Translations under genes and position numbers: made by a program | Origin: Clostridiales bacterium | GTDB lineage: Bacteria > Bacillota > Clostridia > Christensenellales > CAG-314 | DNA length: 64,000 nt | Assembly: GCA_022508375.1 (NCBI GenBank) | Contig: JAFLVJ010000006.1 | Span: 1-64,000 of the forward strand | Direction: 5' to 3' | Shown here: positions 309 to 50,951 of the stretch, piece after piece | Numbering within the stretch: position 1 is the first letter of the stretch | How the letters are laid out: each line of letters starts with the position of its first letter | The notes under the pieces: model-generated | Databases searched by the model: none | Told to the model about the DNA's origin: nothing | Seen by the model: only the letters and a program-made list of their open reading frames with translations

Positions 309-3300
309 ATGAAATTCTGGCGATATTTTTTGCGAGGCGTTTGTTGTTTCTGCGCGTTGCTGTGCGCTCTGTGTTACGGAGCGGAAGTCATTGCGGGCGC
401 AGGAGACTACAAGAACCTTGTAGATGACTTCCTTGGCGGAAGTAGCGCTTCGGCAGGCAGTGTGGATACGTACGCATTTCAATCCGACTACGATTCGCTT
501 GAGGACATGCTTACGGCGCGCAAACAAATTGCGGAGCAAATTGCAGAAGAAGGCGTAGTGCTCCTCAAAAACGAAGAAATTGCAGAGGGCAAAACGTCCC
601 TTCCCCTTCGTCAAAAGGGACAAAGCGGTCAAATTCGCGCAACGGTACTCGGTTCGCGCGCATATACCTACAAGGAAGACGGCGTAACCTTGCGCGATAC
701 GTCGCTCACCTTTTACGGCGGTATTACTGGTAGCAAAATATACGAGCAGACGGTAACGCTGAACGACGGTTCAACCTTACGCCTACCTGTCACTATGGAC
801 AGGGCGCTTGCTACTCAGGATATTATCATAAACCCCAATATGGTTAGTTTCTACTCCAATAAACCCTTCCCGACCATTCTTACAGGTAGTGAGGGTAGCG
901 GAAACTCGGGTGCTGCGTATGCTGTCAATGAACCTGCAATTACCATCAACGACGTTGCAGAGCGTAACAGCTACAATGACGTTTGTTTCGTAGTTATCGG
1001 TCGGTGCAGTGGTGAAGGCAGAGATTACTTCCCCGGTGCTACGGGAGTATTTGCCAGCGACAGTCAAAAGAGCGCTATCGGACTTAGCGCCGAGGAGCTC
1101 AACCTGATTGCGGTAGCAAACGAAATATCCGACAACGTTGTGGTTGTTATCAACAGTGCGATTACTATGGAAATCGATGAATTGGCAAATGACGAACGCG
1201 TCGATTCCATAGTGTGGATAGGACTTCCCGGCAGTTACGGTCTTAACGGTGTTGCAAGGGTTTTAAGCGGCGAGGCTGCTCCTTCGGGACACCTGTCGGA
1301 CACTTACGCAGTGGAAGCGAAAAACTCTCCCGCAGCGCAAAACTTTGGCGTTTATACGCAAACTAATACAAACGATTTGTTTACTTGGTCGAGAAGCTCG
1401 TCTTCGCGTACCGGTACGGACGACTCCCACTACGTAGTGCTTGCCGAGGGACTTTACACCGGTTACAGTTACTACGAAACTCGTTACTACGATACCGTTC
1501 TCGGTCAAGGTAATGCGTCTGCACCTGTTGGTGCTTCGGGTGGCGCGAGTAGCTGGGCGTACGAAAATGAAGTTACTTATCCGTTCGGCTATGGTATGAG
1601 TTATACAACTTTCGAACAGCAAATCGTTGCCAATTCCTTCCGCTACAACGGCGTTGACAAGACGGTATCGCTAAACGTTATCGTAACAAACGTGGGCGAC
1701 TATCCCGCAAAGGACGTTGTACAGCTGTACGTTTCTACGCCATATACGGCTTACGACAAGGCAAACGGTGTGGAAAAACCCGCAATTCAACTTATTTCAT
1801 TCGGTAAAACACAGACGCTTGCGCCCGGTGAGGAAGAGGAAATCGTACTTACCGCCGACATTAAATACTTCGCTTCCTACGACAAGACGGCAAGTCACGA
1901 CGGTTTGACGGGCGGTTACATTATGGAGACGGGCGATTACTACTTTGCAATAGGTAATGGTGCACACGAAGCGGTTAACAATGTACTTGCTGCAAATGCA
2001 AGCGTTGACTCATCTAAGATTGTATCGCTAAACGGAGTAGCGCCCGATGCCGACAAGGCGTACGTGTGGTCGCTCGGTAGCGCCTCTGCCGAAACTGGCA
2101 CGGACTTCAGCTTTAGTAACGGCGTGGATGTCACGTACTTCTCCCGTTCGGATAACGGCACGGTTATATCCAATCAGATGGCGGACGCCGATTACAACTA
2201 TTTCAAAGAGGGTACAGTAACATACCTATCCCGTAGCGATTGGGCGGGTACCTTCCCCAAATCCTACACTTTCCTCGATGAGACGCCGGCAATGAAGAAA
2301 TATCTCGACGACCATGTTTATGAATTCGGCACTTCCGGCACGACCAACGTAGAGTTCGGCGTGGACCACAGCGAGGAAGAGGATGAAAACGGAGTTCCTG
2401 CCGAGAACATGTCGCTAGCGGAACTTAAACTGGCAGCTTTTGACGACAATAGGTGGGATTACCTGCTTTCGCAGATTACATTTGACGAGGCGTGGATGTT
2501 CTCACCGTACGGCGGCTCGAGTTGTATTGCATTTACTTCGGTCAATGCGCCCGAGGTTTGGCAGATAGACGGTCCCAACGGTAACGTTACCCGCGGTTAC
2601 GGCTCTAAGGCGCCCGAATCCGGCTATCTCGGAGTTTCCAAAACAAATCCCAATGCAGGTTACTACAGCGCGGATATGCCCTGTGCGCCCATGACTGCGG
2701 CAACGTTTAACCGTGAACTGCTGGAAGAACAGGGCAAGATTTACGGCGAGGACAACCTGTGGAGCCGCAATCCCATAATGTGGGCGCCCGGTATGAACTT
2801 GCACCGTACTCCCTTCAACTCGAGAAACCACGAGTACTACAGCGAAGACCCCATGCTGACAAACTTGCTCGGTACGGCGTTTGTGCGCGGCGGCGTGCAA
2901 AAAGGCTCTATCCTTGCGGCTAAGCACTTTGCTTTCAACACGCAGGAATCATTCCGTGAAGGTCTGGCTCAATTTATGGAGGAGCAATCGGCACGCGAAC
3001 ACGAGCTACGTGCTTTCCAAGGCTTGAGTGAGGACGTAGGCTACGTCAACGAAGCAGGAAACACTGTAAATGCGCTAGGACTTATGAGTTCGTTCTCACG
3101 TACAGGCGTATGCAACGTCAATGCGCACACAGGCGTTATTAAGAACATTCTCCGAAAGGAATGGGGCTTTAAAGGACTTATCTCTACCGACATGGTAGTT
3201 GGTGCCAATTATTCCAATCCGCAGGATAGCGTTGTTAACAACGTAACTTTCATGGCGACGTCCAATGCCGGCAACTTGCTCAACACGGCAGATTGGCAGG

Positions 3301-3599
3301 ACTACAACAACAAGAGTAAAGTGCGCAACGATCCCAACATGGTCAACGCGCTGTACGACAACATGCATTACTACATGTATTCCATTGCAAACAGCATTGC
3401 GTTAAACGGTATCGCCCCCGGCGACGTTATACAAACGGGCGTGAAATCCTGGTGGGAGTACATGCTCATCGGTCTGGGAAGCGGTTTTGCCGCACTCACG
3501 TTTGTAGCAGGTAGTTTGCTTATCGTTGCCGACGTTCGCAACAAGGCTGCTGACGTTGGCGACAATAAAGATGAAACAAAGGAGGAACAACATGAGTAA
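309..3599 (+). CDS. Membrane-tethered family 3 glycoside hydrolase with permuted domains (locus A)
   Basis: This 1096-residue protein belongs to the beta-glucosidase/xylosidase family GH3. The usual domain order is reversed. The alpha/beta-sandwich domain, marked by EEGVVLLKN near residue 80 and by the SGEGRDY motif whose Glu236 is the likely acid/base, comes first. A fibronectin-III-like domain with VVQLYVS follows. The TIM-barrel domain comes last, with DGPNG, NLHRTPFNSRNHEYYSEDP, AKHFAFNTQES and the nucleophile motif GLISTDM (Asp961). An N-terminal hydrophobic helix (about 6-27) and a C-terminal helix (about 1049-1071) before a charged tail place the enzyme outside, anchored at both ends. 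The start has AAGGAGG at 298-304. Reversed order is known from some ruminal beta-glucosidases; the double anchoring is less usual. Substrate is not readable. The gene overlaps the next by 8 bp. Confidence 0.9.
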   Translation: MKFWRYFLRGVCCFCALLCALCYGAEVIAGAGDYKNLVDDFLGGSSASAGSVDTYAFQSDYDSLEDMLTARKQIAEQIAEEGVVLLKNEEIAEGKTSLPLRQKGQSGQIRATVLGSRAYTYKEDGVTLRDTSLTFYGGITGSKIYEQTVTLNDGSTLRLPVTMDRALATQDIIINPNMVSFYSNKPFPTILTGSEGSGNSGAAYAVNEPAITINDVAERNSYNDVCFVVIGRCSGEGRDYFPGATGVFASDSQKSAIGLSAEELNLIAVANEISDNVVVVINSAITMEIDELANDERVDSIVWIGLPGSYGLNGVARVLSGEAAPSGHLSDTYAVEAKNSPAAQNFGVYTQTNTNDLFTWSRSSSSRTGTDDSHYVVLAEGLYTGYSYYETRYYDTVLGQGNASAPVGASGGASSWAYENEVTYPFGYGMSYTTFEQQIVANSFRYNGVDKTVSLNVIVTNVGDYPAKDVVQLYVSTPYTAYDKANGVEKPAIQLISFGKTQTLAPGEEEEIVLTADIKYFASYDKTASHDGLTGGYIMETGDYYFAIGNGAHEAVNNVLAANASVDSSKIVSLNGVAPDADKAYVWSLGSASAETGTDFSFSNGVDVTYFSRSDNGTVISNQMADADYNYFKEGTVTYLSRSDWAGTFPKSYTFLDETPAMKKYLDDHVYEFGTSGTTNVEFGVDHSEEEDENGVPAENMSLAELKLAAFDDNRWDYLLSQITFDEAWMFSPYGGSSCIAFTSVNAPEVWQIDGPNGNVTRGYGSKAPESGYLGVSKTNPNAGYYSADMPCAPMTAATFNRELLEEQGKIYGEDNLWSRNPIMWAPGMNLHRTPFNSRNHEYYSEDPMLTNLLGTAFVRGGVQKGSILAAKHFAFNTQESFREGLAQFMEEQSAREHELRAFQGLSEDVGYVNEAGNTVNALGLMSSFSRTGVCNVNAHTGVIKNILRKEWGFKGLISTDMVVGANYSNPQDSVVNNVTFMATSNAGNLLNTADWQDYNNKSKVRNDPNMVNALYDNMHYYMYSIANSIALNGIAPGDVIQTGVKSWWEYMLIGLGSGFAALTFVAGSLLIVADVRNKAADVGDNKDETKEEQHE

Positions 3600-4086
3600 G
3601 CGACAAATTAGAATCCCGTTTTTGGGACTAAGTATCTTGTCGGTATCGTGGATTTGCACGCTTGTGGCGTTTATTATGTCCTTTAAAGTGTACAAGATAT
3701 TCGGCTATGCAACCAATAGATGGGCAGTGTTCCTTTCCTTTGCCGCTTTATGGTTGATAACGTTCCTCATGGTAAATTCGCTGTTTGCAGGGGAAAAACC
3801 ATTTTGGGCGGATCTACTGTACGTGGCAGTTTGCGTGGCTTTAACGTTTGCGGCGATTTTGTTTATTCAACCTTGCCTTGCGCCTATGGGTATCTATTTC
3901 ACCGTCGGCAACATGGGTGACGTCGAAGCTAACGCTGCGGGTGTGCCTCGCGCAATTGCAACAGTGGCTTTGTATATTGTAGCCCTTCTCGGCATGCTTA
4001 TTGCAGCGTTTGTTCCGGCATTTATCGGTATCAGGAAAAAAGACGCCGTAAGTCCTGCTACTAACAAAGACGAGGTGGCGCTATGA
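3592..4086 (+). CDS. Four-helix membrane protein partnering the GH3 (locus A)
   Basis: I chose the start at 3592, inside the end of the GH3 gene, because GGAGG lies just before it; this gives 164 residues. Four hydrophobic helices are visible at about 10-32, 44-66, 73-93 and 121-147. The segment between helices 3 and 4 (94-120) contains PCLAPMG, IYFTVGNMGDVEAN and GVPRAIA. The same protein forms the C-terminal part of the locus B GH3 (16,481-20,146), where this loop is the best conserved stretch. By the positive-inside rule the loop faces outward, on the same side as the GH3 catalytic domains. I do not recognise a named family. A structural anchor, a sugar-handling membrane partner or a scaffold are all possible; the fusion makes a physical link to the GH3 very likely. 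Confidence 0.85.
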   Translation: MSKRQIRIPFLGLSILSVSWICTLVAFIMSFKVYKIFGYATNRWAVFLSFAALWLITFLMVNSLFAGEKPFWADLLYVAVCVALTFAAILFIQPCLAPMGIYFTVGNMGDVEANAAGVPRAIATVALYIVALLGMLIAAFVPAFIGIRKKDAVSPATNKDEVAL

Positions 4087-5549
4087 CAACTACTGCAAAT
4101 AACAATTCCGAGAAATTCATGGGTAGATATATCAGTTCTATTGCCTACGCCATATTCGGCGTTGTAACGTTAATTATCTTCGGCGCGCTGATAATATGGA
4201 GCGCTCTCGGCGTAAAGGAAGGAGTTGTCAATATCTACGAAGTACCGCTTGAAATTACGGAACAAGTGGAAGTAGTTGACGGCGTAACGGTGACTAAGAC
4301 CGTACAGACCGAGTATCTTGTAGGGCAAAAATTTAACCCCGATTGTATATCGCTCAATATAGGTTCGGATAAAAAGCCAGATTTGATTCCCGCTTCGGAG
4401 TGCGTAATAGACGCAGACTTTTCCAGCGGTGGAAACAAGCGTGTTACCATCACATACTCGCCTGACGCTTACACAAGCTACAAGGGATATCTCAACGTTT
4501 CCGTATATTTCGTGCGCGGACTTGAGGTAGTTACACAACCCACGAGCGTTGACGTTGCCGAAGACGGAAGTTTCACTTGTGACGATAATTTCAAGATTCT
4601 TGCGCATCTCAATACTATGCCGAGCGATACGGACAAGTTTGAGCCGGCAGGGGATAACACCGTTGTTCTTACGCCCGCAATGTACACGGCGTTGGCGGTG
4701 GAGAGCAAGCAAATCAGCAGTTACTACACAGGTTCGATTTATTGCGGAAACTTGACCTATTCGTTCAATTTCTTCAACGGCGCGGGACGTACATTCATTA
4801 TCAACTCGGAAAGGAACATCGTAACCTACGAAAACACTAACGCAAACTCGTCTGCGACGTTGACCCTCATCGTTACGGACGCGCCCGACACCTACCAACA
4901 CGAAAGCGTAGGTAACACTGTGGGATATTACATCTACACAAGTGAAAGCGGGCAAACAAGCGTACACGAGTTCGCCTATGAACTCACCGAAAAGCAGGAA
5001 ATCTTTACTTCCGACGGCTTTAGCGAGGCGCATACGGGCGACGCTTATACGGCAACCTACGGAGGCCAAACGTTTACCACAACGTCTAACCTGTTCCAAA
5101 GCGCGGTAGTCAACGGTATTATTCTCCAAGACGGTCCGTATCTGTTTGTTGTGGAATCGGCGGACAGAACGTTGGAGTTCACCCGCGTAACAAACGATAC
5201 TCCCCAACCGGGTCAAACCGTTCCGACACTCAAGGTGTATGTAACCTACTACGAATTCAACATGAGCACTGGTAGCGGCGTATCAACGGGATTTTACGTA
5301 TATACCGACGCCAACGGAGCCAAATACAAGATTCCCTTCTACCTGCAGACGTGGGTGTGGGACTACGTACCTCTTTCGGCAGGTCACGCTACCGATCCCA
5401 ATCAGCAGATTGTTGACTACTTAGAGGCGCAATACATTGGCGCAATTCACGCAGAGGTCAATATTTATTCAAGGTCGATGGGCTGGGTTAAAGACCATTT
5501 CAGGGCGGAGTTCACCGATATTCGGTACGCTGCCTACAACACCCACTAA
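4083..5549 (+). CDS. Membrane-anchored protein with Ig-like extracellular domain (locus A)
   Basis: The 488-residue protein starts within the previous stop codon (ATGA overlap). One transmembrane helix at about 16-40 is followed by an extracellular part. Residues of about 65-145 (TEYLVGQKFNPDCISL, then a run ending in YKGYLNVSVYFV) resemble the bug_3 type of bacterial Ig-like domain, which is common in Gram-positive surface proteins. The rest is beta-rich, with no catalytic motif that I recognise. The product of 20,130-21,098 is a shorter paralogue at the same position in locus B, sharing the anchor, EYLVGQ and the Ig-like part. It probably forms part of a surface assembly with the GH3 and the four-helix protein; a glycan-binding or scaffold role is inference. 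Confidence 0.8.
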   Translation: MTTTANNNSEKFMGRYISSIAYAIFGVVTLIIFGALIIWSALGVKEGVVNIYEVPLEITEQVEVVDGVTVTKTVQTEYLVGQKFNPDCISLNIGSDKKPDLIPASECVIDADFSSGGNKRVTITYSPDAYTSYKGYLNVSVYFVRGLEVVTQPTSVDVAEDGSFTCDDNFKILAHLNTMPSDTDKFEPAGDNTVVLTPAMYTALAVESKQISSYYTGSIYCGNLTYSFNFFNGAGRTFIINSERNIVTYENTNANSSATLTLIVTDAPDTYQHESVGNTVGYYIYTSESGQTSVHEFAYELTEKQEIFTSDGFSEAHTGDAYTATYGGQTFTTTSNLFQSAVVNGIILQDGPYLFVVESADRTLEFTRVTNDTPQPGQTVPTLKVYVTYYEFNMSTGSGVSTGFYVYTDANGAKYKIPFYLQTWVWDYVPLSAGHATDPNQQIVDYLEAQYIGAIHAEVNIYSRSMGWVKDHFRAEFTDIRYAAYNTH

Positions 5550-5561
5550 AAGGAGGAGCGC

Positions 5562-6278
5562 ATGAAAAAGTTTTTATCTATTACTATAGCTGTGCTGATT
5601 GCATTTTCCGCGCTTGTTTTACTTGTGGGTTGCAAGGATGAAAACAATACCCAACCTACGGAAAAAAGCGGACTTATCGGTACGTTCACCTATTCGGAAT
5701 CAATTCGTACCAGCGAAATTGTAAGTGACAACCCATTCGAAAGCGCATTGCGTTTGTACGGTAGCGAGCAGGACGCTGCAAACGGAAATCTTTGGTGTGA
5801 TGTTTATCCGTTTAACGGAATACAAGGCTCGCGAGTTAGCTACACCTACGACCAACGTCTTCAGCTTAAACGGGACTTTACCTATATATACCAATACACG
5901 ATTACGTTGACCAACTCGGAGGATTGGGGAAACGATTTCGCCCGCATGACTATCGTTATGGAAGGTAATTACAGTTATCAGGATAGCGGTTCGGGCGTAT
6001 ATACAGTAACTCTTACCGATCCTTATGCGGGAACGCAGACGGTTTACGGCGCAACAGCAGTCAGACCGGGCGACGTTTACGGTTGGACAATCAATTCCTC
6101 CGCCACTTACGTTGAAGACGTAGTAGCAGAACTTTCGCAAAATGCCGACTACAGTTATAACCGCTACCTCAAGGGGCGCGACCTTGTAGTTAACAAGGAG
6201 GATAAGTCCGTTATCGACAACATCTTTTACCGTGACATAATGAACGATATCGCAGTTTACAGCGATTACACTTTTTGA
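5562..6278 (+). CDS. Small lipoprotein of unknown function (locus A)
   Basis: The 238-residue product has a clear lipoprotein signal ending in LLVGC (Cys at about 24) and starts 8 bp after AGGAGG. The mature part opens with LIGTFTYSES and contains YTYDQRLQLKRDFTYIYQY. The locus B protein at 21,254-21,937 has the matching LRGTFTYSET and IDQRLKLNRDFTYNYDY, so the two are paralogues occupying the same slot. The family is not one I can name. Its beta-rich composition, small size and placement between the Ig-like membrane protein and a large secreted protein suggest a structural or binding subunit of the surface complex. Confidence 0.8.
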   Translation: MKKFLSITIAVLIAFSALVLLVGCKDENNTQPTEKSGLIGTFTYSESIRTSEIVSDNPFESALRLYGSEQDAANGNLWCDVYPFNGIQGSRVSYTYDQRLQLKRDFTYIYQYTITLTNSEDWGNDFARMTIVMEGNYSYQDSGSGVYTVTLTDPYAGTQTVYGATAVRPGDVYGWTINSSATYVEDVVAELSQNADYSYNRYLKGRDLVVNKEDKSVIDNIFYRDIMNDIAVYSDYTF

Positions 6279-6305
6279 AATAGAACAAGCTAAAAAGGGG
6301 AAAAT

Positions 6306-8804
6306 ATGGTGACAAAACGTTATTTAAAAACAACATTACTTGTCCTCTGCATAGTTGCGTTTGTGACGTCGGTCGCATTGTTGGGACTGTGTTTTGCAAG
6401 CGAAACAAATGCGGAGCAACAGGTATTTAAGGACGTAACCGTACGTGTTGACAACGGAATTCGTGTTGATTACACGGTAAATTTACCCGAAGGTTACACG
6501 GCGCCGTCGCTTCAAATCGAGCGAGGCAGTCAAACTGTTACGCTCACGTCCTACGTGAAAACAGCCGAAGGCATCGTATTTACTTACGGTGGCGTACGAG
6601 CGGCGGTTATGGATCAAGAAATCACAGCCACGCTTTATGCTAACAATGCAAGCGGCGAAAAGGTATCTGTGGAAGAAAATACCTTCACTGTTTCCGATTA
6701 CTTTAATACGCTTTTGGCAAAGACTGCCGAGGAATCGGGCATTACGAACAATTTCGTATATCAGGCGCAACGTGCCTACGCTGCCAATATCCTTAACTTA
6801 GGTGAAAAAGCAACGGGTAACAGTTTGCTTTCTCTTTCGAGTGACGAACGCAAATTGATTGTATTTACCGACGAAAACAAATACAACGGTAGCGATTGGC
6901 CATTGCGTGACAGCCTTACGAAAATCGAAGGAACGGACGCTACAGGCTTTGCTTGGGTGGGACTGCCTGTTTTCGACTTGAATCAAGGTTTTTACCTTCG
7001 TTACAGTTTTACGGCAACCAACGCCATTGCAAGTGATCTTCGAGTAAAGATTGACTTGCAGGACAACACACACTGGACTATCCCTGTGCAGATCGGGGAG
7101 CAAAACGGTGTTCCCGTTTACGGCTTCGGTTACGGCGTTGACGCTACCGAATTTTGCTTCGACGCACAAGTAACGGTATATAGCGGCGATACTCCGATAA
7201 GTGCAACTATCGGCTACAGCATGAACCGCGCCCTTGCGTACGGCGCTACGTTTGGCGACAGAGATACTAGGGCGCTTGCAAGCGCGGCTTGGTCGTTAGG
7301 TAAGGCGGTAGTGTGGTACGAATACGCAGAGGAAATGGATTATGTTTTCCTGCCCAATATGACGGACAACGGAATATATGCAGGATTTATGTTCGACTAC
7401 GTATATGACAGTAATCTTATGATTGCCGAAAGTATGGGTAAATCCAATCCCGCAATTTGGCTTAACGGAACGGGCTATTCCGCCGAGGAACTGTCCGATA
7501 CAACCGTTGAAGACGGATATACTGTTGCTTACGAACAAGACCTATTCACAGTTACTCTTGACGGAGTTGGGGATGTTTCGGGTATTGTTGTTCCAAGTGG
7601 GGATTTGCGTATCGCGGTGAATGCCGACAGTTCTGTTTCGGGAGGCTTTTATCGCAACTGGGACGACAAAAACAGTCGCACCGTCAGTACTGTAGGCACA
7701 ACGGAAAATATTACCATTGTCGGTAGCAACGGCTCAACGCTTACGGTTAACGGCAGGCTGTTAACTGACGGAAACGTCACAGTCGAGGGCAACGTTAACG
7801 TAGTTGTGGTAATTGACAAATCCGACATGAACGGTTTGGAAGCACATACGCTTACCGTTTCGGACGGTGCCAAATTGACGCTACGTTACGTTGGTACAGA
7901 GCCTGCGCGCAACGCAGGAATTCGCACAATTTCCGATATATCTGTTGTTGATGCGCAACTTGATATTAACAGTTTCATGTACGGAATACAGTTCGGCGGA
8001 GATCAAGACAACCGTGAAATTGACTTTACCGTTACAAACTCCGTAATTTCCATTGTAAGTGACGACTACGGTGTGACGGCGGTGGAAATCCCCGGTGCCG
8101 ATTGGAACGGATGGCAAGCAACGCGTTGGACGGTTACGCTGGCTCTTAGCCAAGGCAGCAAGATGAATATCGACGGTGGACGTGGCACACGCTTTGTCAA
8201 CATCGTACTCGGTAATGCAGCTCTCACAGTCAACGCAATATACAACGGTATCGGCGACGAATGGACTCCCGCTACGCTAACTACCACAAGCGGAAACTAC
8301 GAAGTGGGAACGCTCACGGTTACGGTAGCCAACACAAATACGGGCGCGTACGCAATGGTTGCGAGCGCTATGGACTTGAACGGCGGTACAATTACCTTTG
8401 TTTCAGGCAATATGGAAGGCGTTTTAAAGACGACCAACCGCAGTGTATGGAACCTTGAAAACTGTGACGTATTTGTGAAAACGACCTCCGTCAGCAAACC
8501 CGTCACCGATTGGGAAGGTAACGTCAGTATTGCCCGTACCTGGGGTATTAACGCTCAGTCGGGTGGTGAACAAATCAACATCGACACGAGTGCGCGACTG
8601 ATAGTGCAGGATTGTGACATCGCTTTTGCATGCTGGGTAGATACCGCATGGTCACCTGATCCGCCTGTTGCAGTCAAGGTACTTGGCTATTTACAAATAG
8701 ATAACTTCTTTGTTCCGCAGTGGGATTGGGGACTTACGGCTCAGTTCTCAGACGGGGAAGGAAACCCTGTAAACATTATCTACACCAACCAACGTTTTGA
8801 ATAA
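6306..8804 (+). CDS. Large secreted beta-rich protein, unknown function
   Basis: The 832-residue product has an N-terminal signal (hydrophobic core about 10-30) with a likely signal peptidase I site after ETNA, and no lipobox. Residues 35-460 show no motif I recognise. From about 465 to 800 there are short repeating strands rich in Val, Thr, Asn and Gly (for example NITIVGSNGSTLTVNG and LTVSDGAKLTLRYVG), the look of a right-handed beta-helix or similar solenoid. Many such folds bind or cleave polysaccharides. It lies between two lipoprotein genes of locus A. It occupies the slot filled in locus B by the beta-helix lipoprotein at 21,940, but I see no clear sequence similarity between the two. 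AAAAGGGG precedes the start codon. Confidence 0.7.
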   Translation: MVTKRYLKTTLLVLCIVAFVTSVALLGLCFASETNAEQQVFKDVTVRVDNGIRVDYTVNLPEGYTAPSLQIERGSQTVTLTSYVKTAEGIVFTYGGVRAAVMDQEITATLYANNASGEKVSVEENTFTVSDYFNTLLAKTAEESGITNNFVYQAQRAYAANILNLGEKATGNSLLSLSSDERKLIVFTDENKYNGSDWPLRDSLTKIEGTDATGFAWVGLPVFDLNQGFYLRYSFTATNAIASDLRVKIDLQDNTHWTIPVQIGEQNGVPVYGFGYGVDATEFCFDAQVTVYSGDTPISATIGYSMNRALAYGATFGDRDTRALASAAWSLGKAVVWYEYAEEMDYVFLPNMTDNGIYAGFMFDYVYDSNLMIAESMGKSNPAIWLNGTGYSAEELSDTTVEDGYTVAYEQDLFTVTLDGVGDVSGIVVPSGDLRIAVNADSSVSGGFYRNWDDKNSRTVSTVGTTENITIVGSNGSTLTVNGRLLTDGNVTVEGNVNVVVVIDKSDMNGLEAHTLTVSDGAKLTLRYVGTEPARNAGIRTISDISVVDAQLDINSFMYGIQFGGDQDNREIDFTVTNSVISIVSDDYGVTAVEIPGADWNGWQATRWTVTLALSQGSKMNIDGGRGTRFVNIVLGNAALTVNAIYNGIGDEWTPATLTTTSGNYEVGTLTVTVANTNTGAYAMVASAMDLNGGTITFVSGNMEGVLKTTNRSVWNLENCDVFVKTTSVSKPVTDWEGNVSIARTWGINAQSGGEQINIDTSARLIVQDCDIAFACWVDTAWSPDPPVAVKVLGYLQIDNFFVPQWDWGLTAQFSDGEGNPVNIIYTNQRFE

Positions 8805-8823
8805 TAGTAAAGGGATAAACAAA

Positions 8824-10923: not shown

Positions 10924-10960
10924 CGACTTGGCAGCAATAGCAATTCGTTTAAAACCCAAT

Positions 10961-10992
10961 AAAAACTCCCGAGAAAAGTCTCGGGAGTTTTT
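10961..10992. terminator. Bidirectional intrinsic terminator
   Basis: A perfect stem, AAACTCCCGAGA paired with TCTCGGGAGTTT around AAAG, is flanked by A and T runs. It can end both locus A transcripts and the convergent DeoR gene. Confidence 0.9.
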
Positions 10993-11004
10993 GTTTATCT
11001 TTTG

Positions 11005-11751
11005 TTATTCGTTTAAAACCTTGGGGTGAACTGCGCGAAGCTGTTCCAATTCCCCGTCCTCGGCGTCGGTGATGAGCATATCGTACGAGTCAAGCGAGGT
11101 AGTTAAAAAAGGCGAGTGTTCGTTTGCTTTCGTTCTGTCGAAGATCAATATGCTTTTTTTGCTTTTTTCGATTGCCGTACGCTTGATTAGCATGGAGTCG
11201 AGAGATAGCTCGTAGCAACCCTGTGTATCCACGGCCGAGCAGGATAGCAGTGCCAAGTCGAAACGGAAATCACTAAGCGCCGAAACGGTCATACCGCCCA
11301 TTACAGCAGTAGTGTGACCGCGAATTTCCCCGCCCGGCAGTATGAGTGTTACGCCGTCGTACTTGGAAATACGCATTGCAACTTGCAAGCCGTTGGTAAC
11401 AACCGTCTTGCGTGAAAAGTTCATACGTTCCACAAGCGCAAGGCAGGTGGAGGAGTTGTCTATGAACACCGTCTGGAAATCGGGAATGTTTTTGAGCGCG
11501 ATGGATACCGCTTTCATTTTTTCCTTGGCATTTTTCGTTTGCCTGATAAAAATGGACAGCTCATCCGAGTTTTCCGACAGTATTGCGCCACCGTGAGAGC
11601 GCTCTATCTGCCCGAGCTTTTGCATTTCGGTGAGGTCGCGCCTGATTGTCGCTTCGCTTACGTACAATATGTGCGCAAGCTGTTCAACGGATGCCGTTTT
11701 GTGTTCTTTTAGGTAGTCGATGATTTGAATACTTCTTTTTTTATACGACAT
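11005..11751 (-). CDS. DeoR-family transcriptional repressor
   Basis: The start at 11,751 (preceded by AAGGAA) gives 248 residues, the normal length for DeoR-family sugar regulators. The N-terminal winged helix is visible (KKRSIQIIDYLKEHKTASVE, then LYVSEATIRRDLTEMQKLG and the family RSHGGA). The C-terminal sensor domain has the isomerase-like fold motifs FIDNSSTCLALVE, TNGLQVA, LPGGEIRG and LIFDRTKANEHSP. Members bind phosphorylated sugars to relieve repression. The gene is divergent from the rhamnosidase and the downstream rha genes, so rhamnulose 1-phosphate is a reasonable inducer, by inference. A DeoR-type regulator for rhamnose, instead of an AraC-type RhaS/RhaR, is known in Gram-positive bacteria. 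Confidence 0.9.
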   Translation of the reverse strand: MSYKKRSIQIIDYLKEHKTASVEQLAHILYVSEATIRRDLTEMQKLGQIERSHGGAILSENSDELSIFIRQTKNAKEKMKAVSIALKNIPDFQTVFIDNSSTCLALVERMNFSRKTVVTNGLQVAMRISKYDGVTLILPGGEIRGHTTAVMGGMTVSALSDFRFDLALLSCSAVDTQGCYELSLDSMLIKRTAIEKSKKSILIFDRTKANEHSPFLTTSLDSYDMLITDAEDGELEQLRAVHPKVLNE

Positions 11752-11781
11752 TTGTTCATTTCCTTGCTCGAATTTGAGCGT

Positions 11782-11810
11782 ATTGTAGCATTTATTTTCA
11801 AATTTGTCAA
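11782..11810 (-). promoter_or_regulatory. Promoter of the DeoR gene
   Basis: On the minus strand TTGACA (11,805-11,810) and TACAAT (11,782-11,787) are separated by 17 bp, close to the ideal sigma-A promoter. Confidence 0.8.
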
Positions 11811-11844
11811 TATATCGCGCAAAATATAAATGAATATTGACAAA
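11803..11844. promoter_or_regulatory. Inverted repeat, candidate DeoR operator
   Basis: TTTGTCAATAT (11,803-11,813) and ATATTGACAAA (11,834-11,844) are perfect 11-bp inverted repeats with a 20-bp spacer. Each arm contains the -35 box of one of the two divergent promoters, so one bound repressor could block both. Part of the symmetry follows from having two TTGACA boxes facing away, but the matching flanks go beyond that. Confidence 0.6.
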
Positions 11845-11865
11845 AACAAGCAATGATGATATATT
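11837..11865 (+). promoter_or_regulatory. Promoter of the rhamnosidase/GH3/rha operon
   Basis: TTGACA (11,837-11,842), a 17-bp spacer and TATATT (11,860-11,865) lie 38 bp before the GH78 start. No other strong promoter or terminator is visible before 30,174 on this strand. Confidence 0.75.
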
Positions 11866-11902
11866 TATATAAATATATATATTGAGGTATATAAGGTAAG
11901 CA

Positions 11903-14452
11903 ATGAAGATTATTTCTTTTACAACCGAAAGTCTCACTAGCGGTTGCGTGACGGATAAATCCGCTCCGCGTTTTTCTTTTACCATTGATTCGGAGTTACA
12001 GGCAACGAAGCTTGCCGAAGCCACGCTTACTATGGGTAATTGGTCCCTAAAAACCTCCGAACAGGTTCTCGTACCGTACGACGGAGAGCCGCTTGAACCT
12101 TTTACAAAGTATGAAGTAAAGCTTACCGCAACGGACAACCATGGCGAAACGGATACTGCTACTACAACCTTTGAAACGGGCAGGATGTCCACCCCGTGGG
12201 AGGCGAAGTGGATAACCGACGGTAGTTACCGTTTCACCGAAAAGCGCGTTTCTCCCACTCCCATGCTGTTCCGTAAGCAAATCGTTACAGATAAGCCTAT
12301 TTCTCGCGCGGTTATATACAGTACCGCAATGGGAATATACGGCATTGACATAAACGGTGTGCGTGTGGGTAACGACTACTTTGCACCGGGATTTACGTCC
12401 TATAAGAGCTACTTGCAGTATCAGACCTACGACGTTACGGATATGCTTTCGGGGCAGGACACATTAACTGCTACGGTTGCAGGCGGCTGGGCGGTAGGTT
12501 CCTTTGTATTCACCCGAAAAAACCGTATCAGTGCCAATAGGCAAGCGCTTCTATTGGAATTGCGCATAACCTACGCCGACGGTACTCAGCAAGTTATCGG
12601 AACGGACGACAGTTGGGAAGTGACTATGGACGGCAACGTCCGTATGGCGGATTTCTACGACGGTGAAACGTACGACGCGACTGTTGACATTCAGCATGTT
12701 ACTTGGCGAAAGGCTTGCGTAGAAACACTGAAAATTCAACCGGAAATTACGGCAGAGTACGGTTCTCCCGTATGCGCGCACGAAGTGATGACGCCAACAT
12801 GCCGACAACTGGACAGCGGTGAGCTTGTTTATGACTTCGGACAGAATTTTGCAGGAGTTATCTGTGCCAAGATAAAGGGTCACAGCGGACAACAGGTTGT
12901 ATTTCGTCATGCCGAACTGCTTAAAGAGGACGGTTCGCCCAATATGGGGTTGCTACGCACGGCAAAGGCAACGGCGACCTATATATGCAAGGATGGGGAT
13001 CAAGTTTATTCTCCGCGCTACACCTATATGGGCTTCAGATACGTTGGAGTATCGGGTATAAGTAAGGACGACATCGAACTGACGGCACTGGCGCTATATT
13101 CGGATATCCAACAAACGGGAAGCTTTGAGTGTTCCAATGAACTTATCAATAAGTTGCAGTCCAATATCGTATGGAGCGCCAAGTCCAATTTCGTCGATAT
13201 TCCCACCGACTGTCCGCAACGCGACGAGCGTATGGGTTGGACGGGCGATATTGCCGTATTTGCCGATACTGCTTGTTACAACTTCGAAATTACGCGTTTC
13301 CTTGAAAAGTGGCTACGGGATTTACGCGCCGAACAGTTAAAAACGGGCGGAATTCCCAATACTATACCTGCGCAAGGTTACGGTTTCCCCGCGACGATGC
13401 CTAAGATGGCGATTGACTTTTGGGGGGATGCGTGCGTGCTCGTTCCATGGGCAATGTATCAGGCAAGCGGAAACGTGCAAATTCTTACAACTTCGTATGA
13501 ATCCATGAAAAAGTACGTAAAAGCTTGCGGATTTTGGGCGAGATTGTTGAGCGTAGGAAAACGCAGATACATCTGGCATACGCCATCTATGTTTCATTTC
13601 GGCGACTGGATTGCGCCGGATGTAAGTAAGATGAGCGCTTGGCAAAAGCGCAGTAAGTGGACGGCAACGGCAAGCTACGCTAATATGTGTCGAATGCTGT
13701 CGCGCATTGCAGGGATTCTCGGCAATAAAGAGGATGAACTTAAATACGAACAACTGTACAGGAAGATTTCCGACGCATACGTTTCCGTGTTTACCGACGG
13801 TAAGGGAAAGTTGAAGCAAGAGTTTCAGACGGCTTACGTATTGCCGTTGCAGTTCGGTATGTTTCCCGAAGAAGTTCGACTGCAAGCTGCGAAAAACCTT
13901 GCAACGATAGTGCAAAACAACGGTTACACAATTGCTACAGGTTTCCCCGGAACGCCGTATATTTTGTTCGCACTTGCCGATAACGGACAAGTAGAAACAG
14001 CCTTCAAAATGCTGGAAAACACACGTTGTCCTTCGTGGCTGTACGAAGTCAAGGCGGGCGGAACTACCATTTGGGAACGTTGGGACGGACTCAAGGAGGA
14101 CGGTACTCTCAATGCGGGAGAAAATGACGGCACAGGCGGTATGATATCCTTCAACCATTACGCGAGCGGAGCGGTGGGAGCGTTTTTGTATAGGCGCGTT
14201 GTCGGCATCGAGCCGTTGGAATGTGGATACAAAAAGTTTCGTATCAAGCCCATTGTTGCAGGCGATATCACCGCTGCAAAGGGCACGGTTACTACACCCT
14301 ACGGTGAAATCGTAAGCAGTTGGATTTTGACAAACGGCGTTTTCGAACTGCGCGTCCACGTTCCTGTTGGAACGGAGTGCGAAGTGACACTTCCTAACGG
14401 ACAAATACACGTATGTGAAAGCGGCAAATACACTTTTAGTTGTGAGAGATGA
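11903..14452 (+). CDS. Alpha-L-rhamnosidase, GH78, cytoplasmic
   Basis: This 849-residue enzyme cleaves terminal alpha-L-rhamnose from glycosides or oligosaccharides. The family N-terminal beta-sandwich domains are seen in WEAKWI, INGVRVG, PGFTSYKSYLQYQTYDVT and VAGGWAVG (about 95-205). The (alpha/alpha)6 catalytic domain has the signature DCPQRDERMGWTGD (436-449), with its acidic catalytic residues, and TIWERWDG around Glu725. Length is usual for the family. There is no signal peptide or membrane helix, so it acts inside on imported rhamnosides. It is first in a long unidirectional operon that ends with the rhamnose catabolic genes. The ribosome binding site is weak (AAGG). A dedicated rhamnoside importer is not seen in the window. 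Confidence 0.93.
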   Translation: MKIISFTTESLTSGCVTDKSAPRFSFTIDSELQATKLAEATLTMGNWSLKTSEQVLVPYDGEPLEPFTKYEVKLTATDNHGETDTATTTFETGRMSTPWEAKWITDGSYRFTEKRVSPTPMLFRKQIVTDKPISRAVIYSTAMGIYGIDINGVRVGNDYFAPGFTSYKSYLQYQTYDVTDMLSGQDTLTATVAGGWAVGSFVFTRKNRISANRQALLLELRITYADGTQQVIGTDDSWEVTMDGNVRMADFYDGETYDATVDIQHVTWRKACVETLKIQPEITAEYGSPVCAHEVMTPTCRQLDSGELVYDFGQNFAGVICAKIKGHSGQQVVFRHAELLKEDGSPNMGLLRTAKATATYICKDGDQVYSPRYTYMGFRYVGVSGISKDDIELTALALYSDIQQTGSFECSNELINKLQSNIVWSAKSNFVDIPTDCPQRDERMGWTGDIAVFADTACYNFEITRFLEKWLRDLRAEQLKTGGIPNTIPAQGYGFPATMPKMAIDFWGDACVLVPWAMYQASGNVQILTTSYESMKKYVKACGFWARLLSVGKRRYIWHTPSMFHFGDWIAPDVSKMSAWQKRSKWTATASYANMCRMLSRIAGILGNKEDELKYEQLYRKISDAYVSVFTDGKGKLKQEFQTAYVLPLQFGMFPEEVRLQAAKNLATIVQNNGYTIATGFPGTPYILFALADNGQVETAFKMLENTRCPSWLYEVKAGGTTIWERWDGLKEDGTLNAGENDGTGGMISFNHYASGAVGAFLYRRVVGIEPLECGYKKFRIKPIVAGDITAAKGTVTTPYGEIVSSWILTNGVFELRVHVPVGTECEVTLPNGQIHVCESGKYTFSCER

Positions 14453-14453
14453 T

Positions 14454-16415
14454 ATGAAAAAACTAACTATTTTGCTTGTGGCAGTTCTTTTGCTTAGTTG
14501 CATAGGTTGCCTCATAGCGTGTCAAGATGATACGCCGTTGGTTTCCTCCGTTAAGATTGACGTATCGTTAAGCTACTCTAACGGACAAACGGTACTTTCC
14601 TGGAATACGGTGGAAGGAGTCGATTACTCGGTTTACCGTGCGCCTTCCCGCTATGCCGAATTCGATTTCGTGCAGGATTGTAACGGAAATTTCGCGGATA
14701 ATACGCGCTACGCCTACTACAAGATATACGCACGGGACAAGGCAGGCAATCTTATCAAGATGTCCGACCCCGTGAGTGAGGAGTATAGTATATTCGAAGA
14801 TAATGCTTACGTTTTTGCTCCGACCGACGATATGACGCGTGTCAGTCGCATACTTTCGGACATTTACTCCGAGATGGAACGTTCGCATTTTACCAATACG
14901 CGCTATGCCGTATTTTTCAAGCCGGGCGACTACGGCGACCTTACTGTTAACGTACCATTTTTCACAACATTTGCGGGACTGGGCGAACAACCTGACGACG
15001 TGACGCTATCATCCCTCAATTGCGACGGCAAGTGGAACGGTAACGCTCTTGTCAATTTCTGGCGAGGCGTGGAAAACCTTTCTTTCAGCAATACGTCCCG
15101 TTGGTCAGTGTCGCAGGGCACGTTTATGCGTAGTGTAAACATAACGGGTGACTTGTATCTGTTTGACTGGGATAACTATCGCCCCGGACAAACGGGTGGC
15201 AACGAGGCGAGCGGCGGTTTTATCGCCGATTCACGTATAACCGGCAAGGTCAATTCCGGCTCGCAACAGCAGTGGTTCACCCGAAACTCCCAACTGAGCA
15301 GTTGGAGTGGTTGTGTGTGGAATATGGTTTTTGCAGGGGTTAACAATGCTCCGGCAGGCACCATGTTTACAAGTGTGGCAAATCTTCCCGTTCTTCGCGA
15401 AAAACCTCGCCTCGTATTCGGTCAGGACGGTTATTCCATTCTCGTTCCTGCATTGAGGCAAAACGCGTCCGACTGTGACTCGACCGAAGGTTCTAAGATT
15501 GCCATTGACAATATTTATTTCGCCAATGCGTCAAGGGATACGGCAACTACCATCAATGCGCAACTCAGTAGCGGTAAGAGCATAGTGTTTATGCCGGGTG
15601 TTTACAGGCTTTCGCAGCCTATTAAAGTTAACAACAGCGGTGCGGTTCTGCTTGGAACAGGGTTAGCGACTCTCATACCTACGGCAGGAAACTCCTGCAT
15701 AGAAGTAGGCGATGTTGACGGCGTGACAGTAGGTGGGCTGTTGTTTGACGCAGGCACTAAACAATCGGAAACGCTACTCAAAGTAGGTGAAAGCGGTGGT
15801 AACCATTCAAGTAACCCAATCTTTTTGTTCGATTGTTTCTTCCGCGTGGGTGGCAATTCTTCACAAAATAGCTACGCTACGACGTCCTTGCAAATTAACG
15901 CAAACGACACAGTAGTGGATAACTGTTGGCTGTGGCGCGCCGATCACGGTTCGGGCGTAGGTTGGGACAAAAACAACGGCGACTACGGCGCTGTTATTGT
16001 CGGCGACAGAGTGAAATGCTACGGACTGTTTGCCGAACACTACAAAAAACATAACGTCAGTTGGAGCGGAAACGACGGGTATCTCGTATTTTATCAAAGC
16101 GAACTTGCTTACGACGTTCCGTCTAACGAAGCTTGGCGTTCCGACGACGGAAACGGTTACGCTTCATTGCGCGTCCACGACAACGTGACGAAATTTGAAA
16201 GTTACGGATTGGGAATATATTCCAATTTCGAAACGGATGGAATCGTGCTCGATTGCGCCATGCGCATACCTGCGCAAGGCAATATCTACGTTGGATATCT
16301 GTGCTCTTACGCCATGAGCTTGAAAGGGACGGTCAACAACCTTATCAACGAAGACGGTCTTTATATCAATTCCGCTCAACGATTCCGTTCCGTACGCAAT
16401 TACGGTACTAAGTAA
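14454..16415 (+). CDS. Beta-helix lipoprotein with N-terminal FnIII-like domain
   Basis: The start at 14,454, one base after the rhamnosidase stop, gives a lipoprotein signal (lipobox LIAC) and 653 residues. Residues of about 35-110 look like a fibronectin-III domain (TVLSWNTVEGVDYSVYRAPS). The rest is a right-handed beta-helix of pectate-lyase type, with conserved motifs NFWRGVENLSFSNTS, SGSQQQWFTRNS, VWNMVFAGV, PVLREKP, FMPGVYRL, LLFDAGTK, LWRADHGSGVGWD and YGLFAEHYKK. Its close paralogue is at 21,940-23,937. From memory the pattern resembles secreted actinobacterial beta-helix proteins often mislabelled as adenylyl cyclase and distantly like GH55; I cannot confirm this here. A polysaccharide hydrolase or lyase is plausible, but the catalytic residues are not assigned. 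Confidence 0.8.
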   Translation: MKKLTILLVAVLLLSCIGCLIACQDDTPLVSSVKIDVSLSYSNGQTVLSWNTVEGVDYSVYRAPSRYAEFDFVQDCNGNFADNTRYAYYKIYARDKAGNLIKMSDPVSEEYSIFEDNAYVFAPTDDMTRVSRILSDIYSEMERSHFTNTRYAVFFKPGDYGDLTVNVPFFTTFAGLGEQPDDVTLSSLNCDGKWNGNALVNFWRGVENLSFSNTSRWSVSQGTFMRSVNITGDLYLFDWDNYRPGQTGGNEASGGFIADSRITGKVNSGSQQQWFTRNSQLSSWSGCVWNMVFAGVNNAPAGTMFTSVANLPVLREKPRLVFGQDGYSILVPALRQNASDCDSTEGSKIAIDNIYFANASRDTATTINAQLSSGKSIVFMPGVYRLSQPIKVNNSGAVLLGTGLATLIPTAGNSCIEVGDVDGVTVGGLLFDAGTKQSETLLKVGESGGNHSSNPIFLFDCFFRVGGNSSQNSYATTSLQINANDTVVDNCWLWRADHGSGVGWDKNNGDYGAVIVGDRVKCYGLFAEHYKKHNVSWSGNDGYLVFYQSELAYDVPSNEAWRSDDGNGYASLRVHDNVTKFESYGLGIYSNFETDGIVLDCAMRIPAQGNIYVGYLCSYAMSLKGTVNNLINEDGLYINSAQRFRSVRNYGTK

Positions 16416-16480
16416 TAATTAACACAACTTTTTTCGACAAACACAAACACGACTATTTCGCCAAATAAAGGAGGAATGAC

Positions 16481-19400
16481 ATGAATTTTGGGTATAGGTT
16501 ACTTCGTGGATTTACAGTCACGTGCGCCTTTTTGTGTGCGCTTGTAATTGGCGCAGTGGGAATTGGCAATATCAGTGACTATAAAGCCATGATCAACGAC
16601 GTATTGGGAGTAAGTTCGTCCTATTCGGGTAGCGCCGAGGACTACGCGTTTACTTCCGACTACGAGGATACAATATCTCTGTTAACGGAGCGTAAGCGCA
16701 TTGCGGAGCAGATTGGCGAGGAGGGGTGTGTTTTGCTTAAAAACGACGGCAACAACACATTGCCTTTGAATGCTACGTCCGCCTCCCCCAAGAAGGTAAC
16801 GGTATTAGGCTCTCGCGCTTATACCTACGACGAAAACGGCAACCTGCGCGACAGTTCGCTTTCATTCTACGGCGGTATTGTGGGCAGTCCCATACGTCAG
16901 CAGACGGTCACCGTTAAGGAAGGGAAAATCAGCCTTCCCATTACGCTGGAAAATGCCTTTACATCCGAGCATATGGAAATTAACCCTGCGCTTGTTCGCA
17001 CCTACTCGAAAAAGAACTTCCCCAGTCTTGTTGTGGGTAGCGAGGCAAATGGCAGCTCGGGCGGACCATTTGCAATCAACGAGCCGAGCCTGTCCCTCAA
17101 TGAATGCGGTAATTACGCCAATTATTCCGACGCTTGTTTTGTAGTAATTGGCAGAACAAGCGGTGAGGGCCGAGAGTACCTTCCCGGACAACTCGGTATT
17201 GCCGACAAAAACGACGGCTCCAAGAGCGCATTGGGACTGAGTAACGCCGAGCGCAATCTTATTACGCTTGCAAACGAAATTGCTCCCGGTAAAGTTATCG
17301 TACTTATCAACAGCGCCGTCGCAATGGAAATAGACGAACTGAAAAACAGCGACATTGTTAACGCCGTATTGTGGATCGGTCTTCCCGGTAGCTACGGAAT
17401 GAACGGCGTTGCGCGCGTAATCAGCGGAACGGCGTCCCCTTCGGGACATCTGTCCGATACCTACGCTGTTGACGCTTCGGTATCACCTGCCGCAGTAAAC
17501 TTCGGCGTAAACAGTGCAGACGGCGGATCTTTTACCTGGTCCGACAACCGTTTCAACAATAACGACAACGCTCACTACGTCGTACTTGCCGAGGATTTAT
17601 ACACAGGTTACTTCTATTACGAAACGCGTTACAATGATATAGTGGAGAACCGCGGAAACGCCTCCAAGCCTGTAGGTATGGGCTACGGCGAACCGAATGG
17701 CGCCACGGAGTGGAAATACGAAAACGAAGTGTCCTATTCGTTCGGCTACGGCTTGAGTTACTCCACGTTTGAGCAAAGTATCGTGCCCAATTCCTTTACG
17801 GCGGACTACGAAAATAAGACCGTATCGGTAGATGTGCTTGTAAAAAACACCGGGTCGGTTACGGCAAAGAGTGTTGTTCAGCTGTATATGCAATCGCCCT
17901 ATACCACCTATGATGTCAGTCATGGAGTAGAGAAGTCGGCTATTCAGTTAGTCGCAGTGGATAAAGTGGAGCTTGCTGCGGGCGAGGAAACAACCGTCAC
18001 GCTGCAAACCTACATGAAGTATCTGGGTAGCTATGACAAGACGGTATCCCACGACGGCGTTACCGGCGGATATATCTTGGAAAACGACGATTACTACTTC
18101 GCAATCGGTAACGGTGCGCACGAGGCGCTCAACAACGTACTTGCAGCGCGCGGTTACGGCGTTGACAGGCTGTTCCTTGAGGAGGGCAGTGCCATCAATG
18201 ATAAAGGTACGGTATCGTGGCGCCCCGAGATTGAATTTAACAGCGCGGGAATTAACGCAACGTTGCTTTCCGTAAGCGAAGGCGGAAAAACTATCGAAAA
18301 TCAGTTAGCTGACGCTGACTATAACTATTTCAACAACAATACAGTTACTTATCTGTCGAGAAACGCATGGGATACAACCTTCCCTGTGGCTTATACAAGA
18401 CTGGGCGTGACAAGCGCAATGGAACTGTATCTTAACAATAGGGTTTATCAGTTGAAGTCCGGTTCAAGCAATGTGGAGTTCGGCGTAGATCACTCGGAGG
18501 ACGAGGATGAAAACGGCGTTCCTTATCGAAATCTTACCATTGCCGATATGAAGCTTGCCGCCTTCGACGACGAGCGTTGGGATTACCTCATTGCGCAAAT
18601 CACGTTTGATGAGGCATGGGCGCTTGCACCTTATGGCGGAACTTCCTGCAATATGTTCCTATCCGTCAATGCGCCCGAGGTGTGGCAGATTGACGGTCCC
18701 AACGGCAACATTACGCGTTCGCTGGGCAACAAGGCGAATAAGAGCGGTAACATGATGGTGGTGGAAAACAGCGATCCCAATGCGGACTATATGTCTGCGG
18801 ATATGCCCTGCGAACCCATGACTGCGGCAACATTTAACCCCAATCTTTTGGAGGAGCAGGGTAAAGCCTACGGCGAAGATATGCTGTGGAGTCGCAACGG
18901 TATGATTTGGGCGCCCGGCATGAACCTGCATCGCACGCCCTTCAACTCCCGTAACCACGAATACTACAGTGAAGACCCAATGCTTACAAATATTATGGGT
19001 ACGTACTTTGTCCGCGGCGGACTTAGTAAGGGCGCGATTCTCGCTGCTAAGCACTTCGCTTTCAACACGCAGGAATCATTCCGTGAAGGCTTGAGCCAAA
19101 TGATGGAAGAACAGTCCGCACGCGAGTTGGAACTTCGCGCTTTCCAGGGAATATTCGAGGACGTCAATTACGTTAATCCGACAAGTGGAACGGAGCACGA
19201 CGCGCTGGGACTGATGAGCTCATTCTCCCGCATAGGTGTGTGTGGCGTAAACGCGCATACAGGACTTATGAAAAACATTCTTCGCGGAGAGTGGGGCTTT
19301 AAGGGGCTTAGTTCTACCGATATGGTTGTAGGCGGAAGGTTTTTCAATCCGCAGGACGCGGTTATTAACAACGTCACATTCATGGCGACATCTAACGGCG

Positions 19401-20146
19401 ACAACCTGCTCAACAGCTATTGGCCCGAATATAACAACAAGGACAACGTGAAAAACGATCCTGCATTGTGTCAGGCACTGCAAGAAAACATGCATTACTA
19501 CATGTATGCTATAGCTAACAGTAGCGCGCTCAACGGTATATCGCCCGATACGGTGATGTCGGAGCCGGTCTATTGGTGGCAGACAGCCCTAATTGTTAGT
19601 AGCGTAGTGTTCGGTTTGGCAACGGTTGGGTTTATGGTTTGGGGCGCAGTCATACAATTGCGCCGAAAAGAGAACGCCTTGGATATCAAGTTCAGACCCA
19701 AGAAACCGCGGTTCGGTTTTATACTGCTAGCGATAGGACTTATCTTTGCGACTGTTGCGTTTGCGCTATATTTCGCAACGTACGGCGCATTGGGATACAA
19801 TCAAGATTACTGGGTAATTGCAACGATGGTCTTTGCACTGTGGAGCTTTGTATGTCTGCTCGTCAACGGCTTCATTGCAGGTAATAAACCCTTCTTCATG
19901 GATATCTTTTACGTGATAGCAATATTTGCTTTGACGTATGCAACAATCAGGTTCATTACGCCGTGTCTGTCGCCTATCGGTATCTACTTCACCGTTCACA
20001 ACATGGGCGACGTCGAGGCAAATGCAATCGGCGTGCCGCGCGCAATTGCGGGAGTAGTGTTCTACTTGCTTTCCATTGTGTGCGTTCGCGTGGCATCGTT
20101 TGTCAATCTTTCGAAAAGGGAGGTTAACAATGGCAAAAAGAATTAA
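16481..20146 (+). CDS. GH3 hydrolase fused to a four-helix membrane domain (locus B)
   Basis: This 1221-residue paralogue of the locus A GH3 has the same permuted order: a sandwich domain with EEGCVLLKN and RTSGEGREY (Glu229), an FnIII-like domain, then the barrel with DGPNG, NLHRTPFNSRNHEYYSEDP, AKHFAFNTQES and GLSSTDM (nucleophile Asp947). After the C-terminal anchor helix (1031-1055) a basic linker leads into four more helices at about 1078-1100, 1110-1133, 1139-1162 and 1187-1208. This part matches the separate 164-residue protein of locus A, including GIYFTVHNMGDVEAN. With the N-terminal helix the whole protein has six membrane segments and the GH3 outside. AAAGGAGG at 16,467-16,474 marks the start. 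Such a fused GH3 is one I do not know from described families. Confidence 0.9.
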   Translation: MNFGYRLLRGFTVTCAFLCALVIGAVGIGNISDYKAMINDVLGVSSSYSGSAEDYAFTSDYEDTISLLTERKRIAEQIGEEGCVLLKNDGNNTLPLNATSASPKKVTVLGSRAYTYDENGNLRDSSLSFYGGIVGSPIRQQTVTVKEGKISLPITLENAFTSEHMEINPALVRTYSKKNFPSLVVGSEANGSSGGPFAINEPSLSLNECGNYANYSDACFVVIGRTSGEGREYLPGQLGIADKNDGSKSALGLSNAERNLITLANEIAPGKVIVLINSAVAMEIDELKNSDIVNAVLWIGLPGSYGMNGVARVISGTASPSGHLSDTYAVDASVSPAAVNFGVNSADGGSFTWSDNRFNNNDNAHYVVLAEDLYTGYFYYETRYNDIVENRGNASKPVGMGYGEPNGATEWKYENEVSYSFGYGLSYSTFEQSIVPNSFTADYENKTVSVDVLVKNTGSVTAKSVVQLYMQSPYTTYDVSHGVEKSAIQLVAVDKVELAAGEETTVTLQTYMKYLGSYDKTVSHDGVTGGYILENDDYYFAIGNGAHEALNNVLAARGYGVDRLFLEEGSAINDKGTVSWRPEIEFNSAGINATLLSVSEGGKTIENQLADADYNYFNNNTVTYLSRNAWDTTFPVAYTRLGVTSAMELYLNNRVYQLKSGSSNVEFGVDHSEDEDENGVPYRNLTIADMKLAAFDDERWDYLIAQITFDEAWALAPYGGTSCNMFLSVNAPEVWQIDGPNGNITRSLGNKANKSGNMMVVENSDPNADYMSADMPCEPMTAATFNPNLLEEQGKAYGEDMLWSRNGMIWAPGMNLHRTPFNSRNHEYYSEDPMLTNIMGTYFVRGGLSKGAILAAKHFAFNTQESFREGLSQMMEEQSARELELRAFQGIFEDVNYVNPTSGTEHDALGLMSSFSRIGVCGVNAHTGLMKNILRGEWGFKGLSSTDMVVGGRFFNPQDAVINNVTFMATSNGDNLLNSYWPEYNNKDNVKNDPALCQALQENMHYYMYAIANSSALNGISPDTVMSEPVYWWQTALIVSSVVFGLATVGFMVWGAVIQLRRKENALDIKFRPKKPRFGFILLAIGLIFATVAFALYFATYGALGYNQDYWVIATMVFALWSFVCLLVNGFIAGNKPFFMDIFYVIAIFALTYATIRFITPCLSPIGIYFTVHNMGDVEANAIGVPRAIAGVVFYLLSIVCVRVASFVNLSKREVNNGKKN

Positions 20147-29215: not shown

Positions 29216-29216
29216 T

Positions 29217-30282: not shown

Positions 30283-30311
30283 ATTTTTAACGATTTTATT
30301 CGGAGAATGTG

Positions 30312-33453: not shown

Positions 33454-33467
33454 CAATTGATAGCATT

Positions 33468-33505
33468 AGACCGAGTTGGCGAGTTCTCAACTCGGTCTTT
33501 TGTCT
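33468..33505 (+). terminator. Intercistronic terminator/attenuator
   Basis: AGACCGAGTTG pairs with CAACTCGGTCT, then TTTTG. Lying between the binding-protein and permease genes, it would make the binding protein more abundant than the permeases. Confidence 0.75.
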
Positions 33506-33541
33506 TTACAGTACTTACAATAACACTTAAAAGGAGTAAAT

Positions 33542-36147: not shown

Positions 36148-36161
36148 AAGGAGATTATTTT

Positions 36162-48836: not shown

Positions 48837-48870
48837 ACTGCCAAGCAACTTCTTTATCGTGGAGGTACAA

Positions 48871-50945: not shown

Positions 50946-50951
50946 GTAGCA

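Follow-up and report, generated by a model that had tools for sequence, protein, structure and literature searches.

A four-helix membrane protein encoded beside, and occasionally fused to, permuted GH3 glycosidases of gut bacteria

Permuted GH3 enzymes described to date

The nearest described relatives of the enzymes considered here are GlyA1 and other permuted GH3 beta-glycosidases (structures 5k6l-5k6o, PMC5104943; 5wvp of Paenibacillus barengoltzii; BrGH3A, PMC11233000). Gut and rumen bacteria often carry permuted GH3s, yet these have been studied as soluble enzymes. BrGH3A has no signal peptide (PMC11233000), and the word "transmembrane" is absent from the main texts of PMC5104943 and PMC11233000. 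In GlyA1, Glu-143 is the acid/base and Asp-709 the nucleophile (PMC5104943). For Butyrivibrio hungatei, a table entry (PMC5716241) lists bgl3D (bhn_I0706, 982 aa), a GH3 whose C-terminus carries a membrane helix, and the passages retrieved from that article discuss no partner protein. Both the permuted subfamily of GlyA1 type and GH3s annotated with C-terminal membrane helices are hence already known.

Two paralogous loci

The 64,000-nucleotide stretch of DNA that was analysed, referred to as the window, contains two paralogous clusters, loci A and B, each composed of a GH3, a four-helix part, a single-helix ectodomain protein and a small lipoprotein, followed by larger surface proteins (Table 1). 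An earlier note on this DNA had reported separate, overlapping GH3 and four-helix genes in locus A and one chain with six membrane segments in locus B, and its coordinates and sizes proved correct. GH3-A runs from an N-terminal membrane helix through GH3_C, an Fn3-like domain and GH3_N to a C-terminal membrane helix, in permuted order. Of the six hydrophobic segments of the GH3-B fusion, four belong to the module; the other two lie at the N-terminus and behind the catalytic part. The two GH3s share 59% identity and the two four-helix modules 44-47%, and a single-sequence search of the source genome recovered these two module copies alone.

Table 1. Positions of the features discussed (window coordinates unless a locus is named)
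Feature	Position	Strand	Remarks
GH3-A (1096 aa)	309..3599	+	Pfam order PF01915, PF14310, PF00933; hydrophobic segments
GH3-A predicted acid/base Glu236 (SGEGR)	1014..1016	+	GlyA1 Glu-143 equivalent via GH3-B alignment
GH3-A predicted nucleophile Asp961 (STDM)	3189..3191	+	GlyA1 Asp-709 equivalent via GH3-B alignment
Shine-Dalgarno-like AGGAGG of the four-helix gene	3580..3585	+	Within the GH3-A coding end
4TM-A, separate four-helix membrane protein (164 aa)	3592..4086	+	ATG start; overlaps GH3-A end by 8 nt
Third gene, locus A	4083..5549	+	One membrane helix and ectodomain; overlaps 4TM stop; orthologues found
Fourth gene, locus A	5562..6278	+	Small lipoprotein-like protein; kept in orthologous loci
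GH78 alpha-L-rhamnosidase	11903..14452	+	Between loci A and B; Pfam Bac_rhamnosid domains
GH3-B::4TM fusion (1221 aa)	16481..20146	+	Single open frame; six membrane segments
GH3-B predicted acid/base Glu229	17165..17167	+	Aligned with GlyA1 Glu-143
GH3-B predicted nucleophile Asp947	19319..19321	+	Aligned with GlyA1 Asp-709
Four-helix module within the fusion	19679..20143	+	From residue 1067
Third gene, locus B	20130..21098	+	One membrane helix and ectodomain; start inside the fusion gene's end
Fourth gene, locus B	21254..21937	+	Small lipoprotein-like protein
rhaB-, rhaA- and rhaD-like L-rhamnose catabolism genes	26583..30101	+	Pfam FGGY, RhaA, Aldolase_II
Four-helix module fused to further membrane helix and ectodomain	L075:1-5757, L066:3280-7074, L073:3923-6709
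Same, further loci	L103:7523-9720, L129:5752-7143, L092:3125-4300

The GH3 enzymes

Both enzymes belong to GH3, with scores for GH3-A and GH3-B of 60.8 and 56.6 bits for GH3_N (PF00933, cut-off 27) and of 79.6 and 79.7 bits for GH3_C (PF01915, cut-off 31). The GH3_C - Fn3 - GH3_N order in Pfam, together with the fold match to 5wvp and 5k6m, assigns them to the permuted subfamily of GlyA1 type. The model of the fused chain aligns with 5wvp over 733 residues (Z 33.6, rmsd 2.9) and also matches the GlyA1 structures. This model has a pLDDT of 87.9 and a pTM of 0.86, which are overall scores and give no view of part-to-part packing. Residue equivalences with GlyA1 were counted from the printed alignment; Glu229 and Asp947 of GH3-B are invariant in 18 sequences of relatives. 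Because the permuted fold is matched and the catalytic residues are intact, both GH3s are probably active retaining exo-glycosidases. The hydrophobic pattern and the flanking lysines would place the catalytic domain outside and both chain ends inside the cell.

The four-helix protein family

A search of the four-helix segment against protein families, proposed in the earlier note, found no Pfam or NCBIfam model that covers it, and no description of the family was found in the open-access literature. The MARVEL domain (PF01284) matched only 2 of 31 family members, with a best E of 0.0075, too little for an assignment to that domain. An AlphaFold2 model of the split module, based on an alignment of 42 relatives, contains helices at 11-37, 43-66, 71-104 and 111-140 (mean pLDDT 88.7). 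The extracellular beta sheet and GLW-C-C motif that define the claudin/PMP22 group were not found, the model being without strands and neither module containing GLW. A fold search with the model returned generic helical bundles, and neither PHROGs nor a sequence search of the PDB gave a usable result.

Detection of the family required a profile, because a single-sequence search of 60 relatives with the four-helix protein recovered the window copies alone. Iterated profiles place the family beside GH3 in Clostridia, Bacilli, Erysipelotrichaceae, Butyrivibrio, Bifidobacterium asteroides and Thermophilibacter. Its distribution in the phylum is patchy, since the copies in the window were all that a profile found among 398 evenly drawn genomes, with at most nine candidates scored per genome.

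The helix cores show no polar or charged residue that is conserved across the family, and small residues in the helices and lysines around their ends recur family-wide. In the window's clade, the segment between TM3 and TM4 (residues 93-115) shows 64% identity vs 35-39% for the helices, which makes it the best conserved long part of the protein, equalled by the four-residue inner loop; 19 of its 23 residues are the same in A and B. Across the whole family, this segment is variable. By the lysine and hydrophobic-pattern rule, it would lie outside, on the side of the enzyme. A variable outer segment combined with recurring small residues is what would be expected if the protein were a scaffold for packing whose outer face is specific to its partner.

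Association with GH3 genes

The profile was used to search 297 whole genomes of the order, blind to GH3 although built from GH3 neighbours, with at most 13 candidates scored per genome. At E<=1e-8 there were 36 matches: 35 of them either touch a GH3 gene or are fused with one, and the last is truncated at the end of its contig. Among 11 weaker matches (E 1e-6 to 1e-4), six adjoin a GH3, and the five unlinked ones match the profile only in part and lie within larger ORFs. Where the flanks are known, doubly anchored GH3s have the partner downstream in 76 cases, upstream in eight, on both sides in one and fused in two. The other 33 have none, which indicates that the partner is dispensable for some enzymes of this architecture. 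The partner was found beside none of the three anchorless full-length GH3s with known flanks. In a supported GH3 clade of 79 members, which spans several classes of gut bacteria, the partner is present in 78 of 78 informative members (in 75 it lies downstream, in two it is fused and in one it is on both sides). The other branch of the GH3 tree is mostly devoid of the partner but holds upstream cases. The adjacency of GH3 and four-helix genes is thus almost certainly general. The scenario of a four-helix protein found mostly away from GH3, envisaged in the earlier note, is refuted by this map of gene neighbourhoods, and its proposal that the two parts belong together extends far outside the window.

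In most split loci, the GH3 stop and the partner start overlap or nearly touch, with a Shine-Dalgarno sequence inside the GH3 end. This arrangement is consistent with translational coupling, which would balance the synthesis of the two proteins. In addition, the N-terminal helix of the GH3 has a WRGL-type motif at its inner end in 62 of the 79 rows with a downstream or fused partner, vs 1 of 33 partnerless rows. As a mark of the partner this motif is only suggestive, for it largely tracks one clade and shared descent could explain it.

Origin of the fusions

The clade of 79 contains two fusions, that of locus B and that of L065. The split state is the rule. Because the two fusions sit on separate branches, each beside split relatives, fusion is derived, with at least two origins on the tree, that of locus B being recent. 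The earlier note had presented the two loci as a natural fusion/fission pair; the natural fusion does exist but is rare and derived rather than one half of a balanced pair. A third fusion, L075, unites the GH3, the four helices and an ectodomain in one frame of 1918 residues and hints at a three-part complex.

The closest relatives of locus B are split (G238, 73% identity) and the locus comes from a metagenome assembly, so that an assembly or frameshift error could be suspected in what would be two truly split loci. Such an error is highly improbable: the junction is clean and lacks the Shine-Dalgarno sequence and ATG that the relatives have, the coupling to the third gene is kept, and a second fusion is present in L065.

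In ten loci (L008, L009, L013, L059, L064, L069, L080, L084, L097 and L111), one in-frame stop parts the GH3 from the four-helix ORF, and a single substitution could therefore fuse them. When GH3 and isolated four-helix rows were aligned together, the latter were misplaced, and this alignment was dropped; in its replacement, these ten loci were read through the single stop, as alignment rows only.

Genomic context and probable substrate

Orthologous clusters of both A and B type occur in the genomes of three other species (G238, G280 and G208) and a related cluster in a fourth (G077); the four-helix gene is separate in all of them. Genes similar to rhaBAD together with GH78 lie close to the clusters in G280 and G208, as does GH78 in G077. 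Because GH78 and rha genes lie by the loci in the window and in these relatives, the window GH3s probably act on a plant glycan or glycoside that contains rhamnose, from which the GH3 would remove a beta-linked sugar outside the cell. A lipoprotein encoded next to the rha genes, at 30309-31445, carries a tyrosine-phosphatase-like signature, HCNIGTDRTG, and a 55% identical relative of it adjoins the B-type locus of G238.

No close homologues of the carbohydrate island (window 1-47414) were found in the sampled congeners, yet the same contig carries an antiporter gene (48859-49923) that shares 84% identity with a congener's. The island was therefore probably acquired, and this antiporter also makes a binning error unlikely. 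Further along, a tRNA-Ser lies at 50854-50945, beyond which the G+C content drops to about 0.36-0.38 up to position 64000, and an ORF of 1360 aa resembling a helicase/methylase is found at 53177-57259. The region 50854-64000 looks like a defence or mobile island.

Proposed role of the four-helix protein and alternatives

Because the two genes are nearly always adjacent and occasionally fused, the pair is suggested to work as one surface machine. The reading that we favour, with reasonable though not high confidence, is that the four-helix protein serves as a membrane subunit dedicated to an exo-glycosidase of the permuted GH3 type that faces outward and is anchored at both ends. The N- and C-terminal helices of the GH3 would pack against those of the partner to make a unit of six helices, and the conserved outer segment may touch either the catalytic domain or the ectodomain protein of the third gene. 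Such a unit could keep the active site at the membrane, from where the freed sugar would reach a nearby permease.

With six membrane segments per unit, in one case in a single fused chain, the partner's helices and both anchors of the GH3 might instead form a channel or permease that cuts and imports sugar in one unit, and other neighbours differ by locus, so that no single transporter is always present. However, the four-helix protein is unlikely to be a transporter, because no polar residue is conserved in its helices and three loci have an MFS sugar permease next to them. These three neighbours, confirmed as MFS_2, are among the large multi-helix membrane proteins encoded within 3.5 kb in 22 of the 31 linked loci with room, and the window has its own genes for an ABC-type sugar transporter, as read from the sequence, at 31846-37508. 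A hydrolase-coupled uptake machine, in which the GH3 anchors and the partner would let the freed sugar cross the membrane or hand it directly to a permease, is likewise doubtful; if true, it would represent a type outside the Bacteroidota one, in gut bacteria.

Gene pairing and coupling alone would also suit a dedicated chaperone, that is, an assembly or folding factor that leaves the doubly anchored GH3 after insertion. We regard this as improbable, given that natural fusions keep the module attached for good and that the outer segment is so well conserved in the window's clade. Mere co-inheritance of a small gene that rides in the GH3 operon while the products never touch appears very unlikely: downstream order and partner are kept over deep GH3 divergence while other neighbours change, the four-helix gene also occurs upstream, and fusions arose more than once. 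If many permuted GH3s work in this way, truncated GH3 constructs may miss a functional part. The natural fusion provides a one-chain construct for structure work.

Comparison with known systems

Among tetraspans, the claudins and TARP/stargazin resemble the module as up-down four-helix membrane bundles (VIA Z 10-12). The match is generic, as scores at least as high are obtained with designed and soluble bundles, and a role as an auxiliary subunit could be drawn from these proteins by analogy only. Among GH3s, bgl3D is comparable to the window enzymes in its similar length and in its C-terminal membrane helix, as far as its table entry goes. The statement of the earlier note that no GH3 with an integral multi-helix partner had been described agrees with our searches of families and open-access papers, but its "new type of membrane-bound glycan processor" was overstated, the chemistry being that of an ordinary GH3. 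If many permuted GH3s are membrane complexes with a four-helix subunit, an unannotated small family would gain a role hypothesis. The window GH3s share with the GlyA1 type an (alpha/beta)6 sandwich - FnIII - barrel architecture (Z about 32-34 over about 730 residues) and an aligned catalytic Glu/Asp pair, but they are anchored at both ends and accompanied by a four-helix partner, whereas the GlyA1 and BrGH3A papers describe enzymes without mention of a partner.
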